DNA from: Neisseriaceae bacterium CLB008
Lineage (GTDB): Bacteria > Pseudomonadota > Gammaproteobacteria > Burkholderiales > Neisseriaceae
Reading direction: 5' to 3'
DNA: 64,000 nucleotides
Assembly (NCBI GenBank): GCA_041228285.1
Contig: CP166133.1
Coordinates: 1,612,001 to 1,676,000, forward strand
Both the position numbers and the translations under genes were made by a program. Under the pieces are notes generated by a model that worked only from the letters and a program-made list of their open reading frames with translations, was not told the origin of the DNA and ran no database searches. This document shows, piece after piece, positions 45,086 through 62,519 of the stretch. Numbering within the stretch: position 1 is the first letter of the stretch; each line of letters starts with the position of its first letter.

Positions 45086-45118
45086 CTCCTCATCTCATTT
45101 AGTTAATGTTCATCAGCC

Positions 45119-46513: not shown

Positions 46514-46542
46514 TCCTTAGGGGTCTATCGAGACCATATCGT

Positions 46543-47922
46543 TTAAATAATTTCAAAATAGCGACGGCGTTCCCAATCGCTGACGTGTTTTTGAAACTCT
46601 CGCTCTTCCCATTCGCGGGTACTGGCGTAATGATCCACAAAGTCATCGCCCAGCCATTCACGCGCCGTGTCTGAGGCGCGTAGCCGCTGAGCCGCATCCC
46701 ATAGGCTACGCGGCAGCGTTAATTCTGGCGGCGGCGTCGCTGCATAGGCGTTGCCCTTATAGGCGGCATCTGGCTCAATCTGGTTGGCAATGCCGTGTAG
46801 GCCGGCAGCAAAAATGGCGGCCGCCACCAGATAAGGATTGCAGTCTGCCCCTGGCACTCGATATTCAATACGCTGTGATTTAGGGCTGCCGCTGATGGCG
46901 CGAATCGCCGTGGTGCGGTTGTCTAAGCCCCATAAGGCAGAGGTCGGCGCCCAATAGCCGGGCACCAAGCGGCGATAGCTGTTGATGGTCGGTGCATGAA
47001 TGGCCATTAAATCGGCCGCCATGTTCTGTAAGCCGCCGACAAACCAGCGCATCTCCTGGCTGATGTTGCCCGGCTGAGTATCGTCGTAAAAAGCGCTGCT
47101 GCCATCAGAGCGTTTGAGCGACACGTGTACATGACCGCCCTGACCCGCATGATCTTGATGCCACTTAGCCATGAACGACACCATGCGGCCCTGCTTTTGT
47201 GCCAATACTTTAGAATAGGTTTTAAACAAGGCCGCATTGTCGGCAGCCAAATGGGTTTCCATCACCTGAAGGGCCACTTCTAGCTGGCCTGGGCCCGTTT
47301 CTTCATGGAAGCTTTCTACTGGAATTTGCATGTGGTTACACACGCCTAAAAGGCCTTCATAAAAATCATTGTTCACGCCGGTACGCAAAATGGAATAACC
47401 AAACGGGCCATGCCCCAGAGGAATGGGCTCATAAAAATCGCGGGCGCGTAAGGATTCATGCGACTCATTGGTGACCAGCATTTCATATTCAAAGCCGGCG
47501 GCGGTTTCAAAACCCATCTCCTGAGCACGCGCCAATACTTTATTCAGAATTTGTCGCGGACACAGCGGCTTCATGTGGCCAATAATTTGCCCCGGCACCA
47601 AGATCGTGCCCTGCTCTAGCGGTAGCTCGCGCCATAGCTCAGGCAATAGCTGCACTTGAGCATCGGCGTAGCCCGTGGCCCAGCCCGATAGATTGATGTT
47701 GTCAAACAGCTCATCGTTGACGTCCCAGCCAAACACCACGTCGCAGAACGCAAAATGATTGTCTAATGCCGATAAGAACTTCTCGGTCGCCATGAACTTG
47801 CCCGCCATCACGCCATCCAGATCAAAAAAGCCCACTTTGACGTGTTTAATCTCGCGATCGGCAATCAGTTGACGTAAATCAGCCACAGCACGTTCGCGGT
47901 TGGCCTTAATCTCTGTTTCCAT
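46543..47922 (-). CDS. Gamma-glutamyl-amine ligase, glutamine synthetase family (PuuA/IpuC/GlnA4-like)
   Basis: A 459-residue ATP-dependent ligase that joins the gamma-carboxyl of glutamate to an amine. GS-fold motifs are EETGPGQLEV (metal-binding Glu), GQGGHVHVSL (His), NSYRRLVPGYWAPTSALWG (ATP site) and RIEYRVPGADCNPYLV. It lacks the canonical GlnA NKFGE-type signals and the adenylylation loop, and is placed with amine catabolic genes, so it is not the housekeeping glutamine synthetase. The co-encoded EutH permease and Fe-alcohol dehydrogenase point to ethanolamine as the amine. Confidence 0.88.
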   Translation of the reverse strand: METEIKANRERAVADLRQLIADREIKHVKVGFFDLDGVMAGKFMATEKFLSALDNHFAFCDVVFGWDVNDELFDNINLSGWATGYADAQVQLLPELWRELPLEQGTILVPGQIIGHMKPLCPRQILNKVLARAQEMGFETAAGFEYEMLVTNESHESLRARDFYEPIPLGHGPFGYSILRTGVNNDFYEGLLGVCNHMQIPVESFHEETGPGQLEVALQVMETHLAADNAALFKTYSKVLAQKQGRMVSFMAKWHQDHAGQGGHVHVSLKRSDGSSAFYDDTQPGNISQEMRWFVGGLQNMAADLMAIHAPTINSYRRLVPGYWAPTSALWGLDNRTTAIRAISGSPKSQRIEYRVPGADCNPYLVAAAIFAAGLHGIANQIEPDAAYKGNAYAATPPPELTLPRSLWDAAQRLRASDTAREWLGDDFVDHYASTREWEEREFQKHVSDWERRRYFEII

Positions 47923-47996
47923 GTAAATCTCCTTTGTTTTTAAGGGTTTTTCTACGTTTTACGGGCGTATCTTCGCCTCTTAAAAATAGAATAAAC

Positions 47997-48002
47997 ATTA
48001 TA
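47997..48002 (-). promoter_or_regulatory. Putative -10 box of the ligase operon promoter
   Basis: On the minus strand a perfect TATAAT lies 75 bp before the ligase start. The -35 region falls at about 48020-48026, inside the left arm of the palindrome at 48023-48042, and is weak. Confidence 0.5.
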
Positions 48003-48022
48003 TTTGATAAAATCAAGAACAA

Positions 48023-48042
48023 TTTGGAACAAAAATTCCAAA
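48023..48042. promoter_or_regulatory. Candidate RpiR operator
   Basis: TTTGGAA-N6-TTCCAAA is a perfect 7-bp inverted repeat located between the two divergent promoters, touching the -35 region of the ligase operon and adjacent to that of the regulator gene. TGGAA/TTCCA arms are in keeping with several RpiR-family operators. Position strongly suggests autoregulation and control of the operon. Confidence 0.6.
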
Positions 48043-48044
48043 CA

Positions 48045-48075
48045 TTGCGGTCATGCCCCTTAAAAGCGATATAAT
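48045..48075 (+). promoter_or_regulatory. Putative promoter of the RpiR regulator gene (ethanolamine locus)
   Basis: A perfect TATAAT at 48070-48075 with TTGCGG at 48045-48050 (19-bp spacer, slightly long). Confidence 0.5.
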
Positions 48076-48099
48076 GCAATCATCCCGTCATGTTTGAAG

Positions 48100-48963
48100 A
48101 TGAAAGCGCCTATGCCCAACAACACCATAGCCGTGCGTTTGCGCGAAGATTACAACGCTTACACACCGGCTGAACGCAAAGTCGCCCGTGTGTTACTGAA
48201 TCAATATCCACTCGCCGGCCTCGAGACCATCGCCCAACTGGCGCAAAAATCTGCCGCCAGCGGCCCCACCGTATTGCGTCTAGTCGCCAAGCTCGGCTTT
48301 AATGGCTATGTGGCCTTCCAAGAGGCGCTGCGCGCAGAGCTAGACGCCAAGCTACAGTCGCCGCTCTTGCGGCGCGATCCCAACCTCATGACCGACAACC
48401 AAGGCTTTGCGCATGGGTTTATCAATAATATTCAGCAGTTATTGCAACAGACGGCCGAGCATTTATTGCTGGCTGATTTTGAAACCGTGGTCGAGTGGTT
48501 GGGCCAACCACGCCATCGCTTATGGATCATCGGTGGCTACATCACCGGCTCTTTGGCCGAATATTTCGGCCATCACCTACAGGCTATCCGCCCGCAGGTG
48601 TCGCTATTGCGCCCGATGCCCAGAACCTGGGTTGAGCACATCGTCGACATGGGTAAAAATGATGTGTTGATTGTGTTTGATATTCGCCGCTATTGGCCTG
48701 AGTTGGCCACCTTGGTGACGCTGGCAAAAGAGCGTAAATGCCGCATTGTCCTCATCACCGACCAATGGACATCGCCCGTGGCCAGCCAGGCCGACGTCGT
48801 GCTCACCGCCTATACTGAAGGGCGTTCTGGCTGGGACACCAACGTGTCAGTGATGCTGTTGATCGACACGCTGATCGCCGCCTTAAATAACCGCGACTGG
48901 GAAGAAACCAAAAGCCGTTTGCAGCAGTTGGAAAACCTGCGCAAGCAGTTTCAGCTGGATTAA
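48100..48963 (+). CDS. RpiR-family regulator divergent from the ethanolamine-type operon
   Basis: A 287-residue regulator with an N-terminal helix-turn-helix (TPAERKVARVLLN, then AQKSAASGPTVLRLVAKLGFNGYVAFQEALR) and a SIS-type effector domain (RLWIIGGYITGSLAEYFGHHL, about residues 140-260). The frame begins at a TTG (48094); ATG 48100 is preferred, with ATG 48112 as alternative. It is transcribed away from the ligase gene with the palindrome and two promoters in between. RpiR regulators commonly sense sugar phosphates, so a non-sugar ligand here would be unusual. Confidence 0.88.
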   Translation: MKAPMPNNTIAVRLREDYNAYTPAERKVARVLLNQYPLAGLETIAQLAQKSAASGPTVLRLVAKLGFNGYVAFQEALRAELDAKLQSPLLRRDPNLMTDNQGFAHGFINNIQQLLQQTAEHLLLADFETVVEWLGQPRHRLWIIGGYITGSLAEYFGHHLQAIRPQVSLLRPMPRTWVEHIVDMGKNDVLIVFDIRRYWPELATLVTLAKERKCRIVLITDQWTSPVASQADVVLTAYTEGRSGWDTNVSVMLLIDTLIAALNNRDWEETKSRLQQLENLRKQFQLD

Positions 48964-49431: not shown

Positions 49432-49457
49432 GTGGGTAGGCTGCGCTTTACCCACCC
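49432..49457. repeat. Palindromic repeat, copy A
   Basis: Arms GTGGGTA and TACCCAC flank GGCTGCGCTT; identical to copy B at 49544-49569. Such GGGTGGGTAAAGCGCAGC-like sequences occur as dispersed intergenic repeats in several proteobacteria. Confidence 0.75.
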
Positions 49458-49543
49458 GATGCGATGTATTGATTCTCAGCGGCTGCTTTACCGTAGGGTG
49501 GGTCGTGACCCACGCGGTTTTTATGCCTTATGGTTCAAAGGCC

Positions 49544-49569
49544 GTGGGTAGGCTGCGCTTTACCCACCC
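49544..49569. repeat. Palindromic repeat, copy B
   Basis: Exact copy of the repeat at 49432-49457, 112 bp away, followed by CCTACC. Confidence 0.75.
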
Positions 49570-49585
49570 TACCAGATGCAGCCAC

Positions 49586-49609
49586 AAAAAAGCCGCCCGC
49601 AGGCGGCTT
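49586..49609 (-). terminator. Rho-independent terminator after the acyl-CoA ligase gene
   Basis: On the minus strand AAGCCGCC-TGCG-GGCGGCTT is followed by a T run, 15 bp past the ligase stop. Confidence 0.88.
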
Positions 49610-49623
49610 CTCTCACACACAGC

Positions 49624-51264
49624 TTACTTAGGTTCTTCTTCCACCAACATCGCCCGCAACACCTTTTTCTGGATTTTACCGGTTGAGGTTTTCGGGATGT
49701 CCTCGGTGAACACCACTTTTTTCACCACTTTAAAGCTGGCTAAATGTTCACGGCAATAGGCCACGATGTCGTCTTTGGTGACCTGCTCTTGACCTGACTT
49801 CAAGGTAATGAAGGCACAAGGCACTTCGCCCCAATAGTCGTCGGGTGCAGCCACCACGGCCACTTCCAAAATGGCAGGATGGTTGTATAAGGCATTTTCT
49901 ACTTCAAGGCTGGAAATATTTTCGCCGCCCGAAATAATGATGTCCTTAGAGCGATCGCGAATCTGCACATAGCCATCTTCGTACCACACACCCACGTCAC
50001 CCGTGTGAAACCAATCCTGTTCAAAGGCTTTGGCGGTTTCGGCAGGATTGTCTAAATACCCTTTCATCACGCTGTTGCCGCGTACCCATAACTCACCCAC
50101 GGTGTCGCCATCTTTAGGCACGGCGCGCCCTTCCTCGTCGGCCACCTTCATGTCGCTCATGGATAAGGAATACACGCCTTGGCGCGCCATTTTGGTGGCT
50201 TTTTGGGTGGCGTCTAGCCCCACCCAATCGTCTTGAGGCTCGCACACCAAGCTTGGCCCATAGGTTTCGGTTAAGCCATACAGGTGCACCACGTTAATGC
50301 CCAAGGCCTCCATTTTGGCAATGGTGGCCGAAGCCGGTGCCGCGCCACCAGTGGCGATTTTAACCGCATGGTCGAACGGCTTTTGCACCTCTTTCGGGGC
50401 ATTCACCATCATGTTGAGCACGATGGGTGCGGCACACATATGGGTGACTTTATGAGTGGCGATGGCGTTAAAAATCGCTTCCGGCCGCGGCTGACGCAGG
50501 CACACGCTGGTGCCGGCAATCGCCGCTACCGCCCAAGGGTAACACCAGCCGTTGCAGTGAAACATCGGCAGCGTCCACAAATACACCGATCCTGGCAACA
50601 GCCCAATGCCGATGATATTGCTTAAGGCATTGAGGTGAGCACCACGATGGTGGTAAACCACGCCCTTAGGCTGGCCGGTGGTGCCCGAGGTGTAGTTCAG
50701 TGAGATGGCCTGCCATTCGTCGGCCACTTCGGCATAGGCATAATCCACGCTGCCCTTAGCCCGCAAGGTTTCGTAGTCGATGCTGCCAATGAGGGCCCCG
50801 CCGCTGTAATTCACGTCATCAACGTCTACCACCAGCGGTTTTTGCTGGCAGCTGGCCAAAGCACCGCTGGCCGTGGCGTGAAACTCCTTATCGGTAAACA
50901 ACACCTTGGTGCCGCTGTGATCCAAGATGTAGGCCAGCGTCTTAGCGTCTAAGCGGGTGTTCATGGTGTTCAACACCCCGCCCACCATCGCCACGGCAAA
51001 ATGTAGCTCCAACATTTCCGGCACATTGGGCAACAGCGTCGACACCACGTCGCCCGTGCCAATGCCTTGCTGGGCCAAAGCATCTGCCATTTGGCGACAG
51101 CGTGCATAGGTTTCCCCCCAAGTGCGCTGAACCGGGCCGTGAATCACGGCCAAGCGATCGCGGTGCGCCATAGCGCTGCGGCGCAAGAAGGTCAGCGGCG
51201 TCAAGGCTGAGAAGTTGGCCGGATTGGGCGGCAAAGCGTCGTTAAAACGGTTGATTGCGTTCAT
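49624..51264 (-). CDS. Acyl-CoA synthetase (AMP-forming), DmdB-like
   Basis: A 546-residue ligase that activates a carboxylic acid with ATP and CoA. The start is ATG 51264 (MNAINRF) with a GGGAG Shine-Dalgarno. Motifs are YTSGTTGQPKGVVYHHRG (AMP-binding), LYGLTETYGP, and the C-terminal DRSKDIIISGGENISSLEVE and STGKIQKK with the catalytic Lys. The length and order resemble medium-chain and 3-methylmercaptopropionyl-CoA ligases (DmdB); the acid used here is not known. Last gene of the six-gene minus-strand operon that begins with malonyl-CoA decarboxylase. Confidence 0.92.
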   Translation of the reverse strand: MNAINRFNDALPPNPANFSALTPLTFLRRSAMAHRDRLAVIHGPVQRTWGETYARCRQMADALAQQGIGTGDVVSTLLPNVPEMLELHFAVAMVGGVLNTMNTRLDAKTLAYILDHSGTKVLFTDKEFHATASGALASCQQKPLVVDVDDVNYSGGALIGSIDYETLRAKGSVDYAYAEVADEWQAISLNYTSGTTGQPKGVVYHHRGAHLNALSNIIGIGLLPGSVYLWTLPMFHCNGWCYPWAVAAIAGTSVCLRQPRPEAIFNAIATHKVTHMCAAPIVLNMMVNAPKEVQKPFDHAVKIATGGAAPASATIAKMEALGINVVHLYGLTETYGPSLVCEPQDDWVGLDATQKATKMARQGVYSLSMSDMKVADEEGRAVPKDGDTVGELWVRGNSVMKGYLDNPAETAKAFEQDWFHTGDVGVWYEDGYVQIRDRSKDIIISGGENISSLEVENALYNHPAILEVAVVAAPDDYWGEVPCAFITLKSGQEQVTKDDIVAYCREHLASFKVVKKVVFTEDIPKTSTGKIQKKVLRAMLVEEEPK

Positions 51265-51281
51265 GCTGTGTACTCCCATGC

Positions 51282-52664
51282 TCAAGATTCCTTCGTCTCA
51301 TGCTCAGGCTCGCCGCTAGGCTCGCCACGGCCTTGCAGCCAATTGCGCTCTAATAAGATGTACAGCACAATCCCAATGCCTAAACCCCAGGTCGCGCCCT
51401 TCACCGCCAAGATGGCGCCGATCATGATGGCCACGCCGCGCTCCACATTGCTGCGATTGGCCAACATTTCAATAGCCAAATAACCACATAAATAGCCCTG
51501 AATCAACAAGGTAATCACCATGCCTAAGTTTAAGCCAGGCTTGAGTAAAGACACAATCGGCACAAACATCATGGCGATACTCATGCCCCAGAACAAGCTG
51601 GTGGCACCGCCCCAATAGCTGTCGACCACTTTACGCGGATTACTGGCGTAGCGATTGATCACCAAAACCTGACCGCCGGTCCAAGACGGACCAGACAAGC
51701 CCAACATTGGTGCCACCATGCCGTGAATAAAGTTACGAATGGCACAAATAATGCTGTTACGCTGCGGGCTAAAGGTTAGTTTCTCGTCTGGGCGCGCCTC
51801 ATCGGCACGCTTAAACATAGAGTCGATCACCAAAATATCGCCAAAGGCAATGATGTAGGCGGCAAAAGCCAAAGGCAGCGCATCAATAAAATACTGTAGC
51901 GACGGCAGGCCTAGACCAAACACCGAGTAGTTCTGGATGATTTCTGTAACCGGGAACGACACCACGCCCCATTCTAAGGTCGGCATGGCCACTTCACCGA
52001 TCACAATCCCGAACACATAGGCCACCAAGAACGGTACGGCAATGCCGTATTGGGCCACGTAGCGGAATAAGGGATAACGTTTACGCAGCGGCGCAGCGGT
52101 TTCCGAAAACAGCATAAAGAAGGCAAAGGCAGAGCCAAACAGGCCGGTGATCGGCATGCTCCAAATGCGGCCATCGGTGCCAAATTGAGAAATAATCGAC
52201 GACACGCCCGCGCCAATCAAAATCCCCGCCTTAATCGACTCCGGCATGCGTTTCACCATCGCGTCGGCGCCTTTAAACACCCCCAGTCCTAGGAAAATCA
52301 CCGCCAGCGTGAGCTGTAAGGCAATCAGCGCCAAGATACGCGCCTCACCTTCGGGATAGCCCAATAGGAAGGCCACATAGAGCGGCAGCCCTGCGGTAAT
52401 CCAACCCGCAACAGAGGGATCACCAAAGCTGGTGTGCATTAAGTATAAGAAATTGTTCAAGACCACAAACGCCACTGCAATCTCGAACGGAATGCCCAAG
52501 ATTTGGGTCATTAAAGCCGTGATGCTCAAGGGCACGACGCATAAAATCATGCCCTGTAAAATATCGGGAATCTCCAGTTTGTAGTGAATAAAGGGTAGTC
52601 TAAGCTTCAGAATGCCCAAAGAGTACGGCTGTTCTGCGCCATCGGCACGTTTTTTAATGCTCAT
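51282..52664 (-). CDS. Multi-helix permease, NCS2/SulP-like fold
   Basis: A 460-residue inner-membrane protein with about 12-14 hydrophobic segments. The start is ATG 52664 (MSIKKRADGAEQ) with GGAGGGT upstream. The segment DILQGMILCVVPLSITALMTQILG and the central ISQFGTDGRIWS suggest the 7+7 inverted repeat fold of NCS2 or SulP permeases, but I cannot place it in a named substrate group. It lies 17 bp before the acyl-CoA ligase gene and probably imports the acid that the ligase activates. Confidence 0.75.
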   Translation of the reverse strand: MSIKKRADGAEQPYSLGILKLRLPFIHYKLEIPDILQGMILCVVPLSITALMTQILGIPFEIAVAFVVLNNFLYLMHTSFGDPSVAGWITAGLPLYVAFLLGYPEGEARILALIALQLTLAVIFLGLGVFKGADAMVKRMPESIKAGILIGAGVSSIISQFGTDGRIWSMPITGLFGSAFAFFMLFSETAAPLRKRYPLFRYVAQYGIAVPFLVAYVFGIVIGEVAMPTLEWGVVSFPVTEIIQNYSVFGLGLPSLQYFIDALPLAFAAYIIAFGDILVIDSMFKRADEARPDEKLTFSPQRNSIICAIRNFIHGMVAPMLGLSGPSWTGGQVLVINRYASNPRKVVDSYWGGATSLFWGMSIAMMFVPIVSLLKPGLNLGMVITLLIQGYLCGYLAIEMLANRSNVERGVAIMIGAILAVKGATWGLGIGIVLYILLERNWLQGRGEPSGEPEHETKES

Positions 52665-52747
52665 TGTTATGACCCTCCAGATGCGCGCGTTCCACTGCGT
52701 CACCTATAAGTTTTTTCGTTTTAAGTTTATTTCCTCTATATCAACTG

Positions 52748-54172
52748 CTAAATCACCATGCCTGCTAACTTGGTTTCTAAATATTCATGAATGCCTGCAC
52801 GTCCTCCTTCTCGTCCTAAACCACTGTGCTGCATGCCGCCAAATGGCGCCGCCGCACTGGTGGGGTTAATGTCGTTTAGTCCAATAATGCCAAAGCGCAA
52901 GCCTTCAAATAACCGCATGGCGCGCGCCAATTGTTCTGTATACACATAGGCCGCCAACCCATATTGGGTGTCGTTGGCTTGGCGCAAGACCGCTTCTTCC
53001 GAATCAAATGCCAACACGGCGGCCACTGGGCCAAAGGTTTCTTCACGGTAAATACGCATCTCCTCAGTCACGCCCGCCAACACCGTGGGCGCATAGAAAT
53101 AGCCTTGATCAAGCCCGTCATGCAGCAACCGTTGGCCGCCGCACAGCAGCGTGGCGCCTTTGGCCACAGCGTCTTTGACCTGAGCATCAACCTTATTCAG
53201 CGCAGCTGCATTGATGAGGGGGCCAATGCTGTTGCCCGGCTCTAAGCCTGGCCCTGCTTTAAGTGCGCTCACGCGTTTCACCAGCTCGGCCAAAAAAGGT
53301 GCCATGATGTCTTGATGCACAAACAGACGGTTAGGGCTGATGCAGGCCTGGCCGGTATTCAGGAATTTCACCAGCGCCAAGCCTTTGGCCGCATGTACTG
53401 GGTCGGCATCGGCACACACAATGGCCGGCGCATGGCCACCCAACTCTAGCGACACCCGCTTTAAATGGGCCGCAGCGAGCGCATTCAGCTTTTTACCCAC
53501 GGCCGTAGAGCCGGTGAAGGTCAGTTTTTGTATTCTGGGGTCTTGGCAAAACGCCTCGCCAACCGCGTCGGGACGACTCACGGTGATTAAATTCACCACG
53601 CCGGCAGGAAAGCCAGCGGCTTCAAAGATTTTCATCATCGCCACGGCGCACAGCGGTGTGCTTTCGGCCGGTTTCAGCACCACGGTACAGCCGGCCGCTA
53701 AGGCTGGCGCCAGCTTTCGGGTAATCATGGAAATCGGATAATTCCAAGGCGTGATGGCACCGACCACGCCGACGGCCTGGTGCTGTACCAAAAAGCGCTG
53801 ATTATCACGGCCAGATGGAATGGTCTCGCCATAGATGCGCTTAGCCTCCTCGGCATACCAGCTCAAAAAATCGGCGCCGTACTGCACCTCGTTCAGAGCC
53901 GCCTTCAAGGGCTTGCCCTGCTCTTGGCTCATGAGCTCAGCCAGCTCGGTTTTTTGCGCCAGCATCAGGCGGTGCGCCTCGCCTAATAGACGGGCACGTT
54001 CATAAGGGTTGGTGCCCGACCAGGCGGGAAAAGCCTGGTGGGCGGCGGCGATCGCCGCCTCAATATCGGCAGGGGTGGCGTCGCCCACATCCCCCAGCCA
54101 CGCACCGGTGGCTGGGTTGTGAACCGAAAAGCGGTTTTCGGCTAAACGCCATTGGCCATTAATCAACATCAC
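52748..54172 (-). CDS. NAD(P)+-dependent succinate/malonate-semialdehyde-type dehydrogenase
   Basis: A 474-residue aldehyde dehydrogenase of the GabD group. Motifs are ITPWNYPISMITRKLAPALAAG, LELGGHAPAIV (Glu), and NTGQACISPNRLFV with the catalytic Cys. GabD-like enzymes oxidise C4 semialdehydes; in this operon a malonate semialdehyde substrate would also fit. Start at 54172 or 54169 (MM). Confidence 0.88.
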   Translation of the reverse strand: MMLINGQWRLAENRFSVHNPATGAWLGDVGDATPADIEAAIAAAHQAFPAWSGTNPYERARLLGEAHRLMLAQKTELAELMSQEQGKPLKAALNEVQYGADFLSWYAEEAKRIYGETIPSGRDNQRFLVQHQAVGVVGAITPWNYPISMITRKLAPALAAGCTVVLKPAESTPLCAVAMMKIFEAAGFPAGVVNLITVSRPDAVGEAFCQDPRIQKLTFTGSTAVGKKLNALAAAHLKRVSLELGGHAPAIVCADADPVHAAKGLALVKFLNTGQACISPNRLFVHQDIMAPFLAELVKRVSALKAGPGLEPGNSIGPLINAAALNKVDAQVKDAVAKGATLLCGGQRLLHDGLDQGYFYAPTVLAGVTEEMRIYREETFGPVAAVLAFDSEEAVLRQANDTQYGLAAYVYTEQLARAMRLFEGLRFGIIGLNDINPTSAAAPFGGMQHSGLGREGGRAGIHEYLETKLAGMVI

Positions 54173-54227
54173 GTTCTCCTCTATTATGGTTTATTATCCG
54201 TGCGCTGCTTAGATTGTCTGCGGTAGC

Positions 54228-56012
54228 TTAAAAATCAGCCTCAGCCAAGGCCATCACGTCTTTGCTGCCAAAGGCGATGATTTGCGCATACGCCAAATAG
54301 CGAGGCAAAACGTGGGCCAGGTAAAAACCACAGGTGTGTTGCTTGCTGCGTTTAAACGGTTCCGACAGATGCGCGCTGCGCGTCTCATCCGCCACCAGTG
54401 CCCAAGCGCGCAGCATCTGCCACGAAGTCACCACGGTTGACGCCAGCATTAAATAGTTAAACGCCATAGCACCCGGCAAGTTAGGGTCGGCTTCGCCTTG
54501 GGATAATAGCGTTGCCGTCGCCGCTTCCAGCGCCTGTAGCGACTGGCCAAACAAGGCCACATAGGCACCGTCAATCGCGGCCAGGCCTGACCACGCGGCG
54601 GCGTCTTGCTGCATTTCTGCCAGCAGCTCATTCATCGCCAAGCCCTGATCGCGCAACACCTTACGGCCCACTAAGTCCATGGCCTGAATGCCGTTGGTGC
54701 CTTCGTAAATCGGCAAAATGCGTGCATCGCGCTGATGCTGCGCCGCGCCGGCCTCTTCCACAAAGCCGCTGCCGCCGTGGCACTGTACGCCTAAAGCCGT
54801 CACCTCTTGCGCCATCTCGGTACACCAGCCCTTCACCAAGGGCGTGAGTAAGTCCAAGCGCCGCTGATGGCGGGCTAAGGCGTCAGGATCGGCGACATGC
54901 TTGGCTAAATCCACTTCGCGACAGGCCAAATAGGCCAAGGCGCGACCGGCTTCGGTTAAGCTGCGCATCAACAGCAGCATACGGCGCACGTCGGGATGGC
55001 GAATGATGGGGCCTGGTTCGCTAAAGCCTGGTGCCACGCCCTGAACCCGCTCTTGGCTATAGGCCAAGGCATGCTGATAAGCACGCTCTGAAATCGACAC
55101 GCCTTGCAGGCCAACGGTGAGGCGGGCATTGTTCATCATGGTGAACATGCAGGCCAGACCACGGTTTTCAGCACCGACTAAATAGCCCACGGCGCCGCCG
55201 TTGTCGCCAAAGCTCATCACACAGGTTGGGCTGGCGTGGATGCCCATTTTGTGCTCAATCGACAGCACGCGACAGTCGTTGGCCTCGCCCAGGCTGCCGT
55301 CGGCGTTGACCATGATTTTGGGCACTAAAAACAGCGAAATACCGCGCACGCCTTCAGGTGCCCCCGGTAATCTGGCCAAGACCAGATGCACGATGTTTTC
55401 GGCCATGTCGTGCTCACCCCAGGTGATGAAGCACTTTTGGCCTTGAATTAAGTAATGATCGCCCTCGGCCTTGGCCGTGGTGCGGATATTCGATAAGTCA
55501 GACCCGGCCTGAGGCTCGGTCAAGTTCATGGTGCCGCTCCAGCGAGCGCTCACCATATTGGGTAAAAACTTTTCTTTAAGGGCCGCTGAGGCGTTTTGCT
55601 CAATCGCCTCAACCGCGCCTTGAGTCAACAATGGACACAAGCCCCACGCCATATTGGCGGCGTGAATCATTTCTTGAATCGGCGTGGCCAGCGCAAACGG
55701 TAGGCCTTGGCCTTCATAGTCGCTGCCAAACTGAATGCCGCCCCAGCCGCCGTCAACAAAGGCTTGGTAAGCCTCTTTAAACCCTGCGGGGGTGGTGATG
55801 CGGCCGTCACCGTCTAAGGTCACGCCCGCCATGTCGCCGCTGTGGTTCAAGGGCGCAATCACTTCGGCGGCCAGCTTGCCGCCCTCTTCCAGAATCGCCT
55901 CAACCAGATCGGCACTCGCGTCTTCACAGGCGCAAGCGTCGACCACGGCGGCAAAGTCGTGTAAATCATTCAGCACAAACAGCATGTCGCTGATAGGGGC
56001 TTGGTATGCCAT
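54228..56012 (-). CDS. Acyl-CoA dehydrogenase, long DmdC-like type
   Basis: A 594-residue FAD enzyme that introduces a 2,3-double bond into an acyl-CoA. The ATG at 56012 has AAGGAG upstream; a TTG two codons earlier is in frame. The FAD/substrate loop LTEPQAGSDLSNIRTTA, the GDNGGAVGYLVGAENRGLACMF segment and the catalytic-Glu motif YEGTNGIQAMDLVGRK are visible. The extra C-terminal region of about 130 residues is found in the DmdC (methylmercaptopropionyl-CoA dehydrogenase) and AcdA groups. 13 bp after the SDR gene. Confidence 0.92.
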   Translation of the reverse strand: MAYQAPISDMLFVLNDLHDFAAVVDACACEDASADLVEAILEEGGKLAAEVIAPLNHSGDMAGVTLDGDGRITTPAGFKEAYQAFVDGGWGGIQFGSDYEGQGLPFALATPIQEMIHAANMAWGLCPLLTQGAVEAIEQNASAALKEKFLPNMVSARWSGTMNLTEPQAGSDLSNIRTTAKAEGDHYLIQGQKCFITWGEHDMAENIVHLVLARLPGAPEGVRGISLFLVPKIMVNADGSLGEANDCRVLSIEHKMGIHASPTCVMSFGDNGGAVGYLVGAENRGLACMFTMMNNARLTVGLQGVSISERAYQHALAYSQERVQGVAPGFSEPGPIIRHPDVRRMLLLMRSLTEAGRALAYLACREVDLAKHVADPDALARHQRRLDLLTPLVKGWCTEMAQEVTALGVQCHGGSGFVEEAGAAQHQRDARILPIYEGTNGIQAMDLVGRKVLRDQGLAMNELLAEMQQDAAAWSGLAAIDGAYVALFGQSLQALEAATATLLSQGEADPNLPGAMAFNYLMLASTVVTSWQMLRAWALVADETRSAHLSEPFKRSKQHTCGFYLAHVLPRYLAYAQIIAFGSKDVMALAEADF

Positions 56013-56025
56013 GGTCAACTACTCC

Positions 56026-56772
56026 TTACATGTATTGGCCGCCGTTAATCGACAAATTGGTACCGGTCATGAAGCCTGCATCGTCAGCGGTCAAGAAGGC
56101 CACGGCGCGTGAAATGTCTTCAGGCGTGCCCAAACGGCCTACAGGTACCCCAGCAATGATCTTGTTCAAGATGTCTTCCGGTACTTGGCGCACCATCGGC
56201 GTGTCGATGTAGCCAGGAGACACGGCGTTGGCGGTCACGCCTTTACGTGCGCCCTCTTGCGCCAAAGATTTGGTTAAGCCATATACGCCCGCTTTAGCCG
56301 CAGCATAGTTGGCTTGACCAAACTGGCCTTTTTCACCGTTTAAAGAAGAAATGTTCACGATGCGGCCCCAGCCTTGAGTACACATGGCGTCAAACACGGG
56401 CTGAACCATATTGAACATGGCGCTTAGGTTGGTGTCGATGACGGCGCGCCATTGCTCAACTTTCATGCGCTTCACTGGTGCGTCACGGGTAATGCCGGCG
56501 TTGTTCACCAAGATGCTTACAGGGCCATGCTCGGCTTGCGCTTGAGCATAAAACGCCACACAGGCATCGGCGTCGGTCACGTCAAGCGCGTACAGAGCCA
56601 GCTCAAAACCCGCCGCCTGCATGTCTTTTTGCCAAGCCAAAGCCGCGGCTTCGGTTTCAGCGCCCGGATAATAGGTGCCAATCACTTTACGGCCTTGTTC
56701 AATCAAGGCTTTACACATAGCTTCGCCCAAACCACCGTGCGCACCGGTCACCACTGCAATTTTTTGTTCCAT
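56026..56772 (-). CDS. phaB: Acetoacetyl-CoA reductase-like short-chain dehydrogenase (PhaB)
   Basis: A 248-residue NADP(H)-dependent SDR. The cofactor loop is VTGAHGGLGEAM, the NNAG motif is ILVNNAGITRD, and the catalytic Ser-Tyr-Lys lie in ISSLNGEKGQFGQANYAAAKAG. The GQFGQ-NY context is typical of PhaB, which reduces acetoacetyl-CoA to (R)-3-hydroxybutyryl-CoA. No PHA synthase gene is seen in the window, so its job could be hydroxyacyl oxidation. Start ATG 56772 has AAGGAG upstream. Confidence 0.9.
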   Translation of the reverse strand: MEQKIAVVTGAHGGLGEAMCKALIEQGRKVIGTYYPGAETEAAALAWQKDMQAAGFELALYALDVTDADACVAFYAQAQAEHGPVSILVNNAGITRDAPVKRMKVEQWRAVIDTNLSAMFNMVQPVFDAMCTQGWGRIVNISSLNGEKGQFGQANYAAAKAGVYGLTKSLAQEGARKGVTANAVSPGYIDTPMVRQVPEDILNKIIAGVPVGRLGTPEDISRAVAFLTADDAGFMTGTNLSINGGQYM

Positions 56773-56856
56773 CGTCAAGCTCCTTTTATTCAATCATGGG
56801 TACTGGGGGCAGGTTGCCGCCTCAGTAGGGTTTAATCTAGGCCGCTCGTAGGCAGC

Positions 56857-58278
56857 CTACTTGAGTAATTTTTGCACTGGACGCGACAGCGCCACGGTGC
56901 CTCGTTCAGAATACTGCTGGCTGCGCGCTTCAATTTTTGGCAGCTCATATAAATAGTTAACCATCATGCCGGCAGCCTCTTTCTCGCCTTTGTCCGACGT
57001 ATCGGCCTGCCAGTTGATTTGACACAGCTGGGCGCCGTTACTGAGGTGAAAATGAGCCACAGGGTCTTTAGCCGTTTTGCCCCCGCGCTTCTCTACGCTG
57101 AGGTAGTGCGCCACCAGCCGCAGCAAGGCTTCTTTTTTAGGGTCTTCGCCCTTAGCTACCTTTTTAGGTTTCGCCTTGGTGACTTTGGCACCGCCACCGG
57201 CTTCGTTGTCTTGCAACGCCAGCCATTCCTTACCGCCGGGCAAAGTCATCAATGTGTCGGCATCTTGCTGCGCCAACCAACGGTTAAAACCTGGAATCGG
57301 CGACAAGGTGGCGAAGTTTTTCAATTGCGCAAACTCTTCACGCAGCTCTTGCACCACTTGTTTGATCAAAAAATTACCAAAGCTGATGCCCGCTAAGCCC
57401 ATTTGCGCATTGGATATCGAATAGAAAATCGCCGTATCGGCCTTATTCAAATCCTCTAAAGGGGCTTCTTCATCCAACAACTTTTGCACGCTATCGGCAA
57501 TCCCGTTCACCAAGGCCACTTCCACAAAAATCAATGGCTCTTTTGGCATATTGGGGTGGAAGAAAGCAAAGCAGCGGCGATCAGAATCCAAGCGATTTTT
57601 TAAATCCTTCCAGCTTTTAATCGTGTGAACTGCTTCGTAGGCAATCAGCTTTTCTAGGGTTTCGGCGCTGGAATGCCAGCCGATCTGCTCTAGCTGTAAC
57701 AGGCCAATATCAAACCAGCTGCTGAGCAGGCTTTTTAAATCCACTTCTAAAGGCGCCAGCTCTGGATGCTTTTTACGTAAACGCAACACTTCTGCACGCA
57801 GGTCAACTAAAAACTTTACCCCAGACTGGAGGCCGTTAAACTGTTTCAACAGCTTAATCCGACGTGGTTCTAAAGCTTGGCGCAAGGCTTCTTCTGCGGC
57901 CACTCTGCTTTCAGGCTCGGCACAGGCCCCGCCCACGCTACAGTTTTGCCATGCGGTGATGGCGGCCTGAACCTTATCTTCTTCCACGCCATAGTCGTTT
58001 TGGGCCAAAAGGCGTAAAAAACGCAGTCGACCGACGTCGCTCAAATGTAAGAAATGCGTGCCCAAGGTGGCCGCACGAGAGCGTGCCGTCACCTGGCAGC
58101 CATCTTTAGCCAAACAGCTGTCGATCCACTGGCGCAGGGTCTCAATGTCTTTACCGTCAAGATTAGGCGACAGCGTTGAAGAGGCGCTCAGCACCGCCGC
58201 ACCCTCCTGGCCTCGCCAGCTCTTAGGCAGCCAGCTCTTTAACGCTTTATCAAATAGGCTAATCGACGTATTGCTCAT
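56857..58278 (-). CDS. mcd: Malonyl-CoA decarboxylase
   Basis: A 473-residue cytoplasmic enzyme that converts malonyl-CoA to acetyl-CoA and CO2. The start is ATG 58278 (MSNTSISLF) preceded by GGGAG. The N-terminal helical domain and C-terminal acetyltransferase-like domain are recognisable; the family C-terminal motif HFHLSNGAQLCQINWQADTSDKGEKEAAGMMVNYLYEL contains the catalytic His. The KPKKVAKGEDPKK insert near residue 395 is unusual. First gene of the minus-strand catabolic operon, facing the MaoC gene. Confidence 0.93.
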   Translation of the reverse strand: MSNTSISLFDKALKSWLPKSWRGQEGAAVLSASSTLSPNLDGKDIETLRQWIDSCLAKDGCQVTARSRAATLGTHFLHLSDVGRLRFLRLLAQNDYGVEEDKVQAAITAWQNCSVGGACAEPESRVAAEEALRQALEPRRIKLLKQFNGLQSGVKFLVDLRAEVLRLRKKHPELAPLEVDLKSLLSSWFDIGLLQLEQIGWHSSAETLEKLIAYEAVHTIKSWKDLKNRLDSDRRCFAFFHPNMPKEPLIFVEVALVNGIADSVQKLLDEEAPLEDLNKADTAIFYSISNAQMGLAGISFGNFLIKQVVQELREEFAQLKNFATLSPIPGFNRWLAQQDADTLMTLPGGKEWLALQDNEAGGGAKVTKAKPKKVAKGEDPKKEALLRLVAHYLSVEKRGGKTAKDPVAHFHLSNGAQLCQINWQADTSDKGEKEAAGMMVNYLYELPKIEARSQQYSERGTVALSRPVQKLLK

Positions 58279-58364
58279 TTTGAGTTCTCCCTGTGGGTGA
58301 TTCTTTGGCGCTTCGATCTGTCGACCGAACATGATTTCAGGCTAACAGAGTCAAAAATATAAAT

Positions 58365-58380
58365 CAAGTATTAATACTTG
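58365..58380. promoter_or_regulatory. 16-bp perfect palindrome in the mcd/maoC divergent region
   Basis: CAAGTATTAATACTTG is a perfect inverted repeat between the two divergent operons, 87 bp from mcd and 68 bp from the MaoC gene. It resembles a TetR-type operator. It overlaps the -35 box of the MaoC promoter. Confidence 0.6.
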
Positions 58381-58406
58381 CTTTTATGTTGGAATACCCT
58401 TACAGT
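58378..58406 (+). promoter_or_regulatory. Putative promoter of the MaoC gene
   Basis: TTGCTT (58378-58383) and TACAGT (58401-58406) are 17 bp apart; the -35 box shares bases with the 16-bp palindrome. Confidence 0.5.
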
Positions 58407-58447
58407 GACACTCACTAACCCGAACAACAACGACTAAGAAAGCCTAT

Positions 58448-58885
58448 ATGACAAATCTACATGGTTACTATTTAGAAGACTTAACAGTTGGCATGAGCGC
58501 TGCCTACGCCAAAACCATTACCGACGCGGACGTGGTGCTGTTTGCCGGCGTCACCGGTGACGACAATCCTGTTCACATCAATGCCGAATACGCCGAGACC
58601 ACTCGCTTTGGTCAACGCATCGTGCACGGCATGTTCAGCGCTGGCTTGATTTCTGCCGTTTTAGGCACACGCCTGCCTGGCCCTGGCGCCATCTATGTGG
58701 ATCAACAGCTCAGCTTTAAGGCTCCGGTACACATTGGCGACACCGTCACCGCCACCGCCACCGTGATTGAGATCGACACCGAACGTCGTCGCGTGAAATT
58801 AGAAACCGTGTGCACGGTCAAAGGCCAAGTGGTCGCCACCGGCGTGGCCACCAATATGGTGGATCGTCGTCCGAAAGAAGCTTAA
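58448..58885 (+). CDS. MaoC-like (R)-specific enoyl-CoA hydratase (PhaJ type)
   Basis: A 145-residue hot-dog-fold hydratase. The catalytic Asp and His are in DDNPVHINAEYA, and RIVHGMFSAGLISAVLGTRLPGPG is the conserved helix region. It adds water to trans-2-enoyl-CoA to give (R)-3-hydroxyacyl-CoA. It would follow the acyl-CoA dehydrogenase encoded on the other side of the palindrome. Confidence 0.93.
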   Translation: MTNLHGYYLEDLTVGMSAAYAKTITDADVVLFAGVTGDDNPVHINAEYAETTRFGQRIVHGMFSAGLISAVLGTRLPGPGAIYVDQQLSFKAPVHIGDTVTATATVIEIDTERRRVKLETVCTVKGQVVATGVATNMVDRRPKEA

Positions 58886-58909
58886 GGCTTTATTGATTAA
58901 GGAGAGACT

Positions 58910-59455
58910 ATGTTAGTCAACGTACAAGACAGCGCCTTATTGGTCATCGACGTGCAAGGCCGACTATTGGGCGGCATTCACCAAAGCGAAGCCTTGGTGC
59001 AAAAATGCCAGGCATTGATCACCCTAGCCCAGGCCCTAGATGTACCTGTTTTAGGCTCAGAGCAATACCCACAAGGCCTAGGCCACAGCGCAGAGCCCTT
59101 GGTTGAGCTATTAGGTCAAGACGCCTTCGTCGGCAAAACCGTGTTTTCCTGCGCCGAATCCACTGAATTTTGCGACCGCTTGGCCAAAACCGCTAAAAAC
59201 AGCGTGATTTTATGCGGCATGGAAGCCCAAGCCTGCATCATTCAAACCGCCTTTGGCTTCTTAGCACAGGGTAAAACCGTCTACGTGGTGGCCGATGCCA
59301 TCTCGGCGCGTAACCCTCTAGAAACCGAGCTGGCCTGTCAACGCATGCGCGCTGCCGGCATCCACATCATCACGGCTGAAATGCTGGGCTTTGAGTGGGT
59401 GCGCGACTCCAGCCACCCTCAGTTTAAGCTGTTCAGCAAACTGCTGTTACGTTAA
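58910..59455 (+). CDS. Isochorismatase-family cysteine hydrolase (YcaC-like)
   Basis: A 181-residue hydrolase with the Asp-Lys-Cys triad visible in LLVIDVQGRLL, FVGKTVFSCAES and LCGMEAQACI. Family members cleave isochorismate, nicotinamide or other amides; substrate here is unknown. It has a GGAGAG Shine-Dalgarno and lies 24 bp after the MaoC gene, so both are probably one transcript ended by the hairpin at 59463. Confidence 0.92.
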   Translation: MLVNVQDSALLVIDVQGRLLGGIHQSEALVQKCQALITLAQALDVPVLGSEQYPQGLGHSAEPLVELLGQDAFVGKTVFSCAESTEFCDRLAKTAKNSVILCGMEAQACIIQTAFGFLAQGKTVYVVADAISARNPLETELACQRMRAAGIHIITAEMLGFEWVRDSSHPQFKLFSKLLLR

Positions 59456-59462: not shown

Positions 59463-59495
59463 GGCGCCCATCTTCATGATGGGCGCCGTCCTTTT
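59463..59495 (+). terminator. Terminator-like hairpin after the isochorismatase gene
   Basis: A 10-bp perfect stem (GGCGCCCATC/GATGGGCGCC, 5-base loop) is followed by GTCCTTTTG. The T run is short and delayed, so termination may be partial. Confidence 0.65.
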
Positions 59496-59532
59496 GAGCG
59501 CTTTGGCCACCGTATTGAAAAGCAGGCAGATC

Positions 59533-61095
59533 ATGTATACTCTCCCGTTCCGACAACTCAGTTCTTTGAACATGTTGAGCATGGCACAGCAGACCAAACT
59601 GACGGCCTTAGCCGACGAAACCGAACGCAACCGCATGCTGGCAGAAATGGCCGAACAATCGACCGACATGATTTCTCGCCACACACCTGACCGTGGCTGC
59701 TTTATTTACGCCTCTCCGGCCATCACCCACTTATTGGGCTACAGCGTGGAGGAAATCATCGGCGTATCTGCCTACGATTTATATCATCCTGACGACGTCG
59801 AAAACTTTAAACGCCGCACCCGCAACGTCAACTACAGCCGCGGCCTGTATACCCATACCTATCGGTTTCGCAGTAAAAGCGGCGAATACATTTGGCTAGA
59901 AAGCACCAGCCGCACCATTCGCGACAAGCACAGCGGCGAAATCAAAGAAATCCTGGTGGTGTCACGCGACATCAGCCACCGTATTTTGGCCGACCAGACC
60001 AACCGCCGACTGGTTCAAGTCATGGAAAGCACCAGCGACATGGTGATTTTTGCATCTTTGCAGCATCGGGTTAAATACATCAACGAAGCCGCCCGCAACA
60101 CCTTATCGCTCCACCACAAGCAGCCAGAAAACCTCGAACTGAGTGAATTATTCCCCGAGGCCGACTATCAGCAGCTACTGCAACACGCCCTAGTTAAAGC
60201 CAGCCTACACGGCAGCTGGCGCGGCGAACTCTCGATGCGCCAGCTGAATTCAAGCGTGGCCATCCCCGTTTCTATAGAGGTTTTGGCGCATATGTCGATG
60301 ACGGCCGAGCTGGACTATTTTTCCCTCGTTGCCCACGACTTAACCGAGGCCCGTGCCGCCGAGGCCAAGCTGACCCAATACCAAACAGAGATCAACCACG
60401 CCGGCCGCATGGTGGCCATGGGCGAACTCGCATCGAGCCTAGCGCATGAGCTGAATCAGCCGCTCACCGCCATCGTCAATTATCTGCGGGGCATCGAACG
60501 GCGTTTTGGCCAAGAGGCCAATATTGCTTGGGCCGATGTGGAATATCCAATCAAAAAAGCCACCGCTACGGCGCTGCGCGCTGGCGAAATAATTCACCGC
60601 ATGATGGACTTCACCCGCCAACGCGAACCATTTAAAAAAGAGCTGTTCGGCCTCGGCGACGTCATCGAAGATTTAGTCGAATTTTGCCACCCCAAGGCCA
60701 AACGCCAGCACGTCCGCTTTGAAACCACGGTACCGGCCGACATCCCCCTAGTCGAAACCGACCGCATTCAGGTCGAACAAGTGTTGCTCAATCTGATGGT
60801 CAACGCCATCGAAGCCTACGCCGACTGCCCAGACGGTCGCGATAAAGTCATCCAAATCACCGTCAGCCAATACGACACCGCCCATCTTCAGGTACAGGTC
60901 AAAGATTTTGGCATGGGCCTACCGGCTGAAGCCGACAAAGTGTTTGAGCGCTTTTTCACCACTAAATCCTCAGGTCTGGGCATAGGCTTGGCCATCAGCC
61001 GCTCGCTGATCGAGGCATTGGGGGGCGAACTGTGGGCGCAAAACAACCCCGAAGGCGGCACTAGCTTTTACTTTACTTTAATGACCAGCATTTAA
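59533..61095 (+). CDS. PAS-domain sensor histidine kinase, FixL/DctB-like
   Basis: A cytoplasmic histidine kinase of about 520 residues. Two PAS domains are seen: the first around ISRHTPDRGCFIYASPAITHLLGYSVEEIIG and YRFRSKSGEYIWLE, the second around STSDMVIFASLQHRVKYINEAARNTL. The phosphorylated His is in MGELASSLAHELNQPLTAI (codon 60445-60447), with N-box LLNLMVNAIEAY and ATP-lid GLGIGLAISRSL. No membrane segment is visible, so it senses an internal signal. The start is uncertain: 59476 lies inside the terminator hairpin, 59533 has a weak AGG, and 59572 or 59581 are possible. A TTGAAA/TATACT pair at 59515-59541 may be the promoter, with a short 15-bp spacer. Confidence 0.9.
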   Translation: MYTLPFRQLSSLNMLSMAQQTKLTALADETERNRMLAEMAEQSTDMISRHTPDRGCFIYASPAITHLLGYSVEEIIGVSAYDLYHPDDVENFKRRTRNVNYSRGLYTHTYRFRSKSGEYIWLESTSRTIRDKHSGEIKEILVVSRDISHRILADQTNRRLVQVMESTSDMVIFASLQHRVKYINEAARNTLSLHHKQPENLELSELFPEADYQQLLQHALVKASLHGSWRGELSMRQLNSSVAIPVSIEVLAHMSMTAELDYFSLVAHDLTEARAAEAKLTQYQTEINHAGRMVAMGELASSLAHELNQPLTAIVNYLRGIERRFGQEANIAWADVEYPIKKATATALRAGEIIHRMMDFTRQREPFKKELFGLGDVIEDLVEFCHPKAKRQHVRFETTVPADIPLVETDRIQVEQVLLNLMVNAIEAYADCPDGRDKVIQITVSQYDTAHLQVQVKDFGMGLPAEADKVFERFFTTKSSGLGIGLAISRSLIEALGGELWAQNNPEGGTSFYFTLMTSI

Positions 61096-61191: not shown

Positions 61192-61812
61192 ATGAATCCA
61201 GCAGACACCCCGCAACGCGTGTACATCATCGACGATGATGTAGATGTGCGCGATTCGCTTAAATGGTTGCTTAATTCCGTCCATTTAGACGTCGTGTGCT
61301 TTGACAATGCCCAAGATTTTCTGGAGCAATGCCCAAGCGACGCCGAAGGCTGTATCATCATGGATTTACGCATGCCGGGCTTAAGCGGCATCAACGCGCA
61401 AAAAAATCTGGCCAAATACCACATCGACCTGCCGCTGATCATGATTTCTGCTCATGGCAGCATCGACACCGCCGTCACCGCCTTACAGCAAGGCGCGCTG
61501 ACCTTTTTAGAAAAACCCTTCGACGACCAAGTGTTGATCGACCACGTTCAGATGGCCTTAACGCAAGACAAAGCGCACAAAGCCAGCGTGCACGAAAAAC
61601 AGGCCTTAAAAGCCCGCTACAACACCTTGACCAAGCGTGAAAAAGAAGTGTTCCAACACGTGGTGCGCGGCCTGTCCAATCAGGAAACCGCCGACGCCCT
61701 AGGCGTCAACCGTAAAACCGTTGAAGGTCACCGCGCCAATATGATCGCCAAAATGGCCTCGCCCTCTTTGGCCGATCTGGTTCAAGCGGCGGTCGCCCTC
61801 GAGCTACTCTAG
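61192..61812 (+). CDS. FixJ-family response regulator
   Basis: A 206-residue regulator. The receiver domain has the acidic pair Asp15/Asp16, phosphorylated Asp58 in IIMDLRMPG, and the switch Lys in LEKPFDD. The C-terminal LuxR-type helix-turn-helix is LTKREKEVFQHVVRGLSNQETADALGVNRKTVEGHR. It lies 96 bp after the kinase gene and is the evident partner. Likely targets are the neighbouring acid-catabolism operons. Confidence 0.93.
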   Translation: MNPADTPQRVYIIDDDVDVRDSLKWLLNSVHLDVVCFDNAQDFLEQCPSDAEGCIIMDLRMPGLSGINAQKNLAKYHIDLPLIMISAHGSIDTAVTALQQGALTFLEKPFDDQVLIDHVQMALTQDKAHKASVHEKQALKARYNTLTKREKEVFQHVVRGLSNQETADALGVNRKTVEGHRANMIAKMASPSLADLVQAAVALELL

Positions 61813-62388: not shown

Positions 62389-62519
62389 TGCCATCCTCCT
62401 ATTTAACCAAGCTTTATCTTAAGCCAAGCCAAACCAATACGCCAGCCGTATTCTGACCGCAATAGGATTGTCTCAGCCACGATTTGATGAGACCATAGAT
62501 GCTTCCCAAGGAGACCATC

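Follow-up and report, generated by a model that had tools for sequence, protein, structure and literature searches.

How might a bacterium oxidise a short carboxylic acid to acetyl-CoA while keeping every intermediate on coenzyme A (CoA)? This question is raised by a group of ten genes in the genome of Neisseriaceae bacterium CLB008. The genes lie in a stretch of 64,000 nucleotides (contig CP166133.1, positions 1,612,001 to 1,676,000; hereafter, the window), which is part of a complete 3.26-Mb host genome (G000). The initial annotation of the window described a catabolic module at 49624-59455, composed of a permease, an acyl-CoA ligase, an acyl-CoA dehydrogenase (ACAD), a MaoC-type hydratase, a short-chain dehydrogenase/reductase (SDR), a semialdehyde dehydrogenase and a malonyl-CoA decarboxylase (MCD). 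All of these are present as intact open reading frames (ORFs) that match the families named, but the interval contains one more gene, for an isochorismatase-family hydrolase (58910-59455) that had gone unnamed, and the conserved unit runs on to 61812, encompassing a sensor kinase and a response regulator of the FixL/FixJ type (Table 1). We propose propionate (or propionyl-CoA) as the substrate, which the module would turn into acetyl-CoA and CO2 with all intermediates bound to CoA, a reading of the gene families for which the probabilities for and against appear to us evenly balanced. That the ten genes form one functional module is far more certain.

A candidate CoA-bound route from propionate to acetyl-CoA

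Six steps lead from propionate to acetyl-CoA, and each is matched by a gene family of the module (ligase, ACAD, MaoC, SDR, aldehyde dehydrogenase [ALDH] and MCD). After import of the acid by the permease, the ligase would form propionyl-CoA, the ACAD would convert it to acryloyl-CoA, and the MaoC-type hydratase would yield 3-hydroxypropionyl-CoA. The SDR, which is of the acetoacetyl-CoA reductase (PhaB) type, would then produce 3-oxopropionyl-CoA (malonyl-semialdehyde-CoA), whose aldehyde end would be oxidised to malonyl-CoA by an ALDH apparently derived from succinate-semialdehyde dehydrogenase (SSADH); finally, MCD would release acetyl-CoA. The ALDH and MCD suit a C3 substrate because thiolysis of 3-oxopropionyl-CoA, with its terminal aldehyde, cannot yield two acetyl-CoA, and a thiolase is absent both among the classified ORFs of the window and among the ten conserved genes. 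Since the ACAD is a constant member, a saturated acid is a better fit than acrylate or 3-hydroxypropionate. The earlier view of a module that takes a short acid to malonyl-CoA and acetyl-CoA is supported. The steps of CoA removal, which that view could not account for, may not be missing: no step would need free 3-hydroxypropionate, since PhaB-type SDRs use CoA thioesters and the ALDH could oxidise 3-oxopropionyl-CoA. Some Marinobacter copies of the module do, however, include a 4HBT-type thioesterase, to which we return below.

The same succession of propionyl-, acryloyl-, 3-hydroxypropionyl-, 3-oxopropionyl-, malonyl- and acetyl-CoA is found in the malonyl-semialdehyde-CoA route of propionate oxidation that Vagelos and Earl are said to have proposed for Clostridium kluyveri in 1959, although that route was biochemistry in an anaerobe, whereas the present one is predicted from genes in Pseudomonadota. 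In Candida and plants, modified beta-oxidation of propionyl-CoA proceeds via free 3-hydroxypropionate. Its upper steps, down to 3-hydroxypropionyl-CoA, are those proposed here, but below this point it relies on a CoA hydrolase, a free-acid dehydrogenase and a CoA-acylating semialdehyde dehydrogenase, in contrast to the PhaB-type SDR, SSADH-like ALDH and MCD of the module; neither the CoA hydrolase nor the CoA-acylating semialdehyde dehydrogenase is found among the ten conserved genes. In the open-licence literature searched, we found no paper that assigns genes to the CoA-bound malonyl-semialdehyde route. The accessible part of work on Cupriavidus necator names 3-oxopropionyl-CoA just as a theoretical route (PMC6572756), and the accessible part of another article contains nothing on the route (PMC8914356).

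The scores and diagnostic residues of the enzymes refine these assignments. Row counts below are inflated by duplicate fetches (e.g., L017 = L107; L003 = L027 = L085), and distinct counts are given separately. The ligase had been considered DmdB-like, but it reaches only 318.6 bits against NF005426 (cut-off 822) and belongs instead with NF006020/PRK08162 (800 bits; cut-off 677); against the malonyl-CoA synthase model, it scores 218.9 (cut-off 558). A ligase predicted to act on short chains, PP_3553, is described for Pseudomonas putida in the available part of one report (PMC9744835). The ALDH matches the SSADH model TIGR01780 with 555.5 bits; this is below the cut-off of 646.35, and an active-site arginine of SSADH is lost, so that the enzyme falls outside SSADH proper. 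At the Arg of the motif K[FY]RN.GQ.C, all 26 module rows (20 distinct) carry Leu271, whereas the Arg is kept in five Protein Data Bank (PDB) chains (four of them named SSADH) and in 4/4 ALDHs encoded beside related permeases. We take this arginine, in FRNxGQxC, to be Arg334 of human SSADH. A second SSADH arginine (MITRK) is retained in the module ALDHs and speaks for some binding in common with SSADH. BoxD and PaaZ are precedents for ALDHs that act on CoA-bound semialdehydes.

The SDR exceeds the TIGR01829 cut-off (352 vs 302.1), falls under that of the stricter PhaB equivalog NF042966 (204.3 vs 436), and has its catalytic Ser, Tyr and Lys invariant across the module rows. The loop following its Rossmann motif was abandoned as a guide to cofactor preference, since the acetoacetyl-CoA reductase 4k6c in the PDB likewise lacks the Arg pair. 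The ACAD is closer to FadE1/FadE2 than to DmdC and has Leu130, Ala298 and Gln305 in 20/20 rows (19 distinct). According to the part of the study available, these positions set chain length in Pseudomonas aeruginosa FadE1 and FadE2, the medium-chain FadE2 having Met130 (PMC11890623); Leu130 is similarly bulky, with the caveat that the PDB chains were assigned to FadE1 or FadE2 from these residues. In MCD, the family domain is present, and Ser305 and His429 (numbering of the 491-aa ORF) are invariant in 27/27 rows, 25 of them distinct. Presumably, these are the functional Ser/His. The start of the MCD gene is probably the ATG at 58278 rather than position 58332, where the longest ORF opens. The kinase and the regulator score below the FixL (229.8; cut-off 850) and FixJ (197.1; cut-off 255) equivalogs, which indicates a pair with FixLJ-like architecture that is not FixLJ.

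Conservation of the ten genes and of a palindrome between their operons

A scan with the permease across 84,980 species (one genome per species; a search that finds close relatives only) returned 24 loci, from three Neisseriaceae metagenome-assembled genomes, 19 Marinobacter records, one Alkalilimnicola and one contig labelled Deltaproteobacteria, and in all 24 the ligase adjoins the permease. Leaving aside the short contigs L002, L004 and L010 (3.7-11 kb), three of the 21 longer loci hold all ten genes and 18 hold nine, the tenth lying past the fetched end. All ten are also present in each of five newly fetched genomes of the Marinobacter order, one of which (G711) repeats the genome of L017. 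In that order, 15 of 293 genomes have a permease match, seven of these to a close permease (68% identity or more); a close permease occurs in 1/54 genomes of the Alkalilimnicola order, in 1/369 genomes sampled from the window's class (the window's own) and, among 101 relatives, only in the three genomes of the window's genus. These distantly related carriers of the module belong to the window's genus, to Marinobacter and Alkalilimnicola, and to further members of the Marinobacter order. Three blocks, MCD-SDR-ACAD-ALDH, MaoC-hydrolase-FixL-FixJ and permease-ligase, are each intact, and their order varies between genomes. MCD genes as such are more widespread (35/369 class genomes). These loci, including the MatB/MCD malonate loci, have MCD in common with the module, but 0/20 of the other MCD neighbourhoods fetched (20 of 34; three cut by contig ends) contain a close module gene, with just distant ligase, SDR or kinase matches (24-32%); some of the ligases beside these other MCDs are presumably MatB. 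In the Alkalilimnicola ehrlichii locus (L022:17985-20551), the SDR and ACAD frames each come in two pieces, possibly an artefact of sequencing, and in the second species of the window's genus the full ALDH gene is immediately preceded by a partial duplication (L003:8305-8508), 68 residues long and 90% identical to a segment of the ALDH.

In the window, MCD, SDR, ACAD, ALDH, permease and ligase follow one another on the minus strand, with the first four gaps being 63, 7, 55 and 44 bp and the permease and ligase ORFs overlapping by 4 bp, so that these six genes look like a single operon. The MaoC, hydrolase and FixL/FixJ-type genes are on the plus strand, divergent from MCD. Between the two groups lies a palindrome, CAAGTA-N4-TACTTG, the exact form of which is present in a single copy in the 3.26-Mb host genome. 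Allowing up to one mismatch, 36 occurrences are found in 1,877,760 bases (window plus fetched sequences, overlaps and duplicates included): 26 between the divergent operons, 8 at a second place in Marinobacter and two elsewhere. Each arm is overlapped by a -35-like box in 26/26 rows (TTGGTT in 21 and 23 for the two sides, variants in the rest), and 17 bp past each there is a -10-like box, of the form TAGnnT towards MCD and TAnnnT towards MaoC; the 17-bp spacing was picked after viewing the sequences, and the rows are related, with one genome represented twice. One locus, L110 (genome G680), whose site has two mismatches, was left out of this alignment. We predict that the FixJ-type regulator binds the palindrome, and the two-component pair would thus act on both operons at a single site that overlaps their -35 boxes.

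It is the position of the palindrome, not its number, that counts as evidence. Among the 16 module genomes, 13 have one exact copy, two have two and one (G680) has none, and all 15 genomes with an exact copy have one between the divergent operons. A reversed control pattern gave 11 matches against 17 true ones in the same 16 genomes, an unremarkable difference, for which reason copy number per genome was set aside as a weak argument. When two mismatches were tolerated and the search was confined to the window, one match was observed and 1.43 were expected by chance. At the second Marinobacter place, the palindrome starts 67-68 bp before the frame of a molybdopterin oxidoreductase in 8/10 fetched loci with this gene (one genome counted twice), and the oxidoreductase is a possible further member of the regulon. 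In some Marinobacter loci (e.g., L008:6672-9818), a 4HBT-type thioesterase and the molybdopterin oxidoreductase are located between FixJ and the permease.

Table 1 The ten genes and associated signals (positions within the window)
Feature	Position	Strand	Remarks
Terminator-like hairpin with T run	49584..49611	-	Directly 3' of ligase gene; read by eye
Acyl-CoA ligase, PRK08162 subfamily	49624..51285	-	NF006020 800 bits, cut-off 677; predicted propionate activation
Permease, PurT relative	51282..52703	-	7tak, E 4.8e-87
ALDH, SSADH-like	52748..54172	-	Leu271 replaces SSADH Arg; predicted 3-oxopropionyl-CoA to malonyl-CoA
ACAD, FadE1/FadE2/DmdC type	54228..56018	-	Predicted propionyl-CoA to acryloyl-CoA
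SDR, acetoacetyl-CoA reductase (PhaB) type	56026..56793	-	TIGR01829; predicted 3-hydroxypropionyl-CoA to 3-oxopropionyl-CoA
MCD	56857..58278	-	Longest ORF start 58332; start revised
Predicted -10 box TAGCCT, six-gene operon	58339..58344	-	TAGnnT in 26/26 rows
Predicted -35 box TTGATT	58362..58367	-	Overlaps left arm of palindrome
Palindrome CAAGTATTAATACTTG	58365..58380	.	Predicted site of FixJ-type regulator
Predicted -35 box TTGCTT	58378..58383	+	Overlaps right arm of palindrome
Predicted -10 box TACAGT, MaoC operon	58401..58406	+	TAnnnT in 26/26 rows
MaoC-type hydratase	58448..58885	+	Predicted acryloyl-CoA to 3-hydroxypropionyl-CoA
Isochorismatase-family hydrolase	58910..59455	+	Kept in module; without assigned step
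Sensor histidine kinase, PAS domains, FixL-like	59476..61095	+	Family match
Response regulator, LuxR-type DNA-binding domain, FixJ-like	61192..61812	+	Family match

Next to the module, a glutamine-synthetase-like gene, an ALDH and an iron-containing alcohol dehydrogenase (Fe-ADH) are consecutive on the minus strand (43919-47922), beside an RpiR-type regulator; the best match of this Fe-ADH is a 4-hydroxybutyrate dehydrogenase model (341.3; cut-off 500). We considered this group (43919-48963) as part of the module and rejected it: outside the window, it was seen to accompany the module in one place only, the near-identical contig L002 ('Neisseriaceae bacterium'). This contig encodes the same permease, with neighbouring genes that are identical or nearly so, which places the host in the same species or one very near to it. 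Just past the ligase end, there is a 35-nt direct repeat (89% identical; 49432-49466 and 49544-49578) with GGGTAGGCTGCGCTTTACCCACC cores. On the other side, immediately after the response regulator, a macrodomain protein close to O-acetyl-ADP-ribose deacetylase models is encoded (61858-62394).

Related loci, host metabolism and competing substrates

Six loci for short-chain fatty acids provide a close comparison: one on a Stutzerimonas stutzeri plasmid, one on a plasmid of Halomonas KO116 and those of four Alkalilimnicola-order genomes (four fetched of five found). Their permeases are 37-41% identical to that of the module, and a homologous ligase (54-56%) lies beside the permease or within 0.6 kb of it; a DmdC-like ACAD (49-52%) is present in 4/6, as is a two-component system of sensor kinase and regulator. 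In contrast to the module, FadB-type genes occur in 3/6 of these sister loci, one of which also has a BktB thiolase, and close homologues of the module MaoC, SDR, ALDH or MCD are found in none of the six. Relative to them, the module adds MaoC, a PhaB-type SDR, ALDH and MCD and is without FadB, which is the change to be expected for a 3-oxoacyl-CoA with a terminal aldehyde.

The permease has no Pfam match. Elsewhere in its family, an Fe-ADH is found near the permease on Agrobacterium and Thioclava plasmids, in L115, L119 and L144, and beside a host paralog (L082), and 4/6 of these loci have an SSADH-like ALDH (45-48%). The paralog loci L084, L116, L118 and L145 have neither a ligase nor Fe-ADH/SSADH-like genes, and L117 has just a distant ligase (34%). 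In a quick tree, the module permeases form a clade of their own (SH-like approximate likelihood ratio support only, long branches flagged). These neighbourhoods suggest a frequent link between the family and short acids. The host paralog, 39% identical to the module permease, is encoded about 12-14 kb past the window end (L082:7725-10327), adjoining the Fe-ADH, with a class-III aminotransferase and an APH-family kinase nearby.

Searched for PrpC, PrpB and methylmalonyl-CoA mutase, the host genome gave a single TIGR01800 match of 341 bits (cut-off 421.3), which we take as citrate synthase, a best PrpB match of 72 bits (cut-off 354.4), likely isocitrate lyase, and no PF01642 match. A PrpB above cut-off is present in 0/3 members of the genus (one 81% complete) and in 33/58 other members of the family, and the mutase in 15/101 relatives, all from other families. 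Because these enzymes are absent while the host genome has thiolases, with a FadB-like ORF beside one (by eye), propionyl-CoA from odd-chain acids would need another outlet. Methylcitrate genes are needed on odd-chain fatty acids, according to the accessible part of one study (PMC12543098).

Several observations weigh against the proposed propionate route. That the module occurs without the methylcitrate cycle, as initially suggested, was found only for the window's genus; 14/14 module-bearing Marinobacter and Alkalilimnicola genomes (PrpB not searched there) have a TIGR01800 match above cut-off, so that absence of the cycle was dropped as a general correlate and the module is no simple substitute for it. 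This model marks PrpC-type citrate synthases and not PrpC alone, being exceeded in 9/14 control genomes too. A free malonate-semialdehyde route would also exist in the host cell, given two genes of the methylmalonate-semialdehyde dehydrogenase type above cut-off, one adjoining a class-III aminotransferase, which fits use of beta-alanine. In eight fetched Marinobacter loci (one genome twice; loci ending before this stretch cannot be judged), the stretch from FixJ to the permease includes the 4HBT-type thioesterase, making a CoA-releasing side step possible there. The ligase motif A5 reads YGLTET, without the Trp seen in Acs/PrpE, a residue that confines substrates to C2-C3. The ACAD filter argues against long chains and appears not to choose between C3 and C4-C5; position 130 is Leu in one and Met in the other of two sister ACADs that were checked, and we do not use the filter as proof of C3. 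The absence of thiolase from the module is weak evidence, as a BktB-like match is absent from 5/6 sister loci as well and the enzyme may come from elsewhere; in one module genome (L109), a BktB-like gene lies about 8 kb from the ligase. Nor does the route give the isochorismatase-family hydrolase anything to do. Finally, the solved relative of the permease (7tak) is named PurT, a purine carrier, a label that weighs less for the module permease given the frequent link of its family to short acids.

Acids of four to six carbons and isobutyrate are serious alternatives to a C3 substrate. The module might carry out beta-oxidation of C4-C6 fatty acids as in the sister loci, with acetoacetyl-CoA or a homologue of it split by a thiolase encoded elsewhere in the genome, where thiolases do occur, and with ALDH and MCD on a side branch; it has permease, ligase and ACAD in common with loci of which 3/6 contain FadB-type genes and 1/6 BktB, and enzymes of the PhaB and MaoC/PhaJ types classically take C4 and longer substrates. 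This would leave idle the ALDH and MCD, which are kept in every long-enough locus, and we regard it as unlikely, although it is the competitor to be taken most seriously. The chemistry with one additional methyl would lead from isobutyryl-CoA through methacrylyl-CoA, 3-hydroxyisobutyryl-CoA and methylmalonyl-semialdehyde-CoA to methylmalonyl-CoA and, by the MCD homologue, to propionyl-CoA, which in Marinobacter could enter the PrpC pathway. In the host, which is without PrpB, PrpC and the mutase, this propionyl-CoA would have nowhere to go unless it could re-enter the module's own enzymes, and the SDR belongs to the acetoacetyl-CoA reductase type; we give isobutyrate or methacrylate a slim chance. 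Much the same slim chance goes to acrylate or 3-hydroxypropionate, for instance from cleavage of dimethylsulfoniopropionate, as the real substrate: the steps below acryloyl-CoA are identical and the Marinobacter carriers are largely marine, but the ACAD, present in every long-enough locus, would be idle. Free 3-hydroxypropionate is moreover handled in Cupriavidus necator by MmsA enzymes, not by mcd, in the part of that work available (PMC6572756).

Other sources appear very improbable. A DmdBC-type pathway for methylmercaptopropionate, one of the substrates first put forward, or a MatB-type malonate pathway would fit with the presence of MCD and with an ACAD related to 6ijc (E 2.8e-127), presumably DmdC. 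The likeness to DmdB and DmdC extends to the ligase superfamily and the ACAD family, but the ligase scores given above lie far under both the DmdB and malonyl-CoA synthase cut-offs, the ACAD is nearer FadE1/FadE2, and a malonate pathway requires neither ACAD nor SDR; family scores led us to reject membership of either system. Equally hard to credit is a C3 fragment derived from nucleobases, with the permease as a purine/pyrimidine carrier, as its homology to PurT might suggest, and the isochorismatase-family enzyme as a ureide hydrolase. The ten-gene set has no ring-opening gene, many permeases of the family adjoin acyl-CoA ligases or Fe-ADH/SSADH-like genes (though some paralog loci have neither), and in the tree PurT itself joins the ligase-linked group.

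Possible significance for propionate metabolism

In its fullest form, our proposal is that of a dedicated CoA-bound propionate system, with an ALDH turned from SSADH to the oxidation of 3-oxopropionyl-CoA, a carboxylate permease from a family known by structure as a purine carrier, and a two-component system with a control site present once in the host genome, that would replace both standard propionyl-CoA routes in the window's genus; we hold this form somewhat more tentatively than the oxidation of propionate itself, and consider it slightly less probable than its negation. If true, it would supply genes for a propionate route that was reportedly proposed decades ago on enzyme evidence, and would show that relatives of purine permeases can serve short carboxylic acids. 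The six-enzyme, CoA-bound path joining propionate, 3-hydroxypropionyl-CoA and malonyl-CoA would be useful for engineering of 3-hydroxypropionate or malonyl-CoA production. For the organism, it would explain how propionyl-CoA is handled in a bacterium that has neither the methylcitrate nor the methylmalonyl-CoA enzymes.

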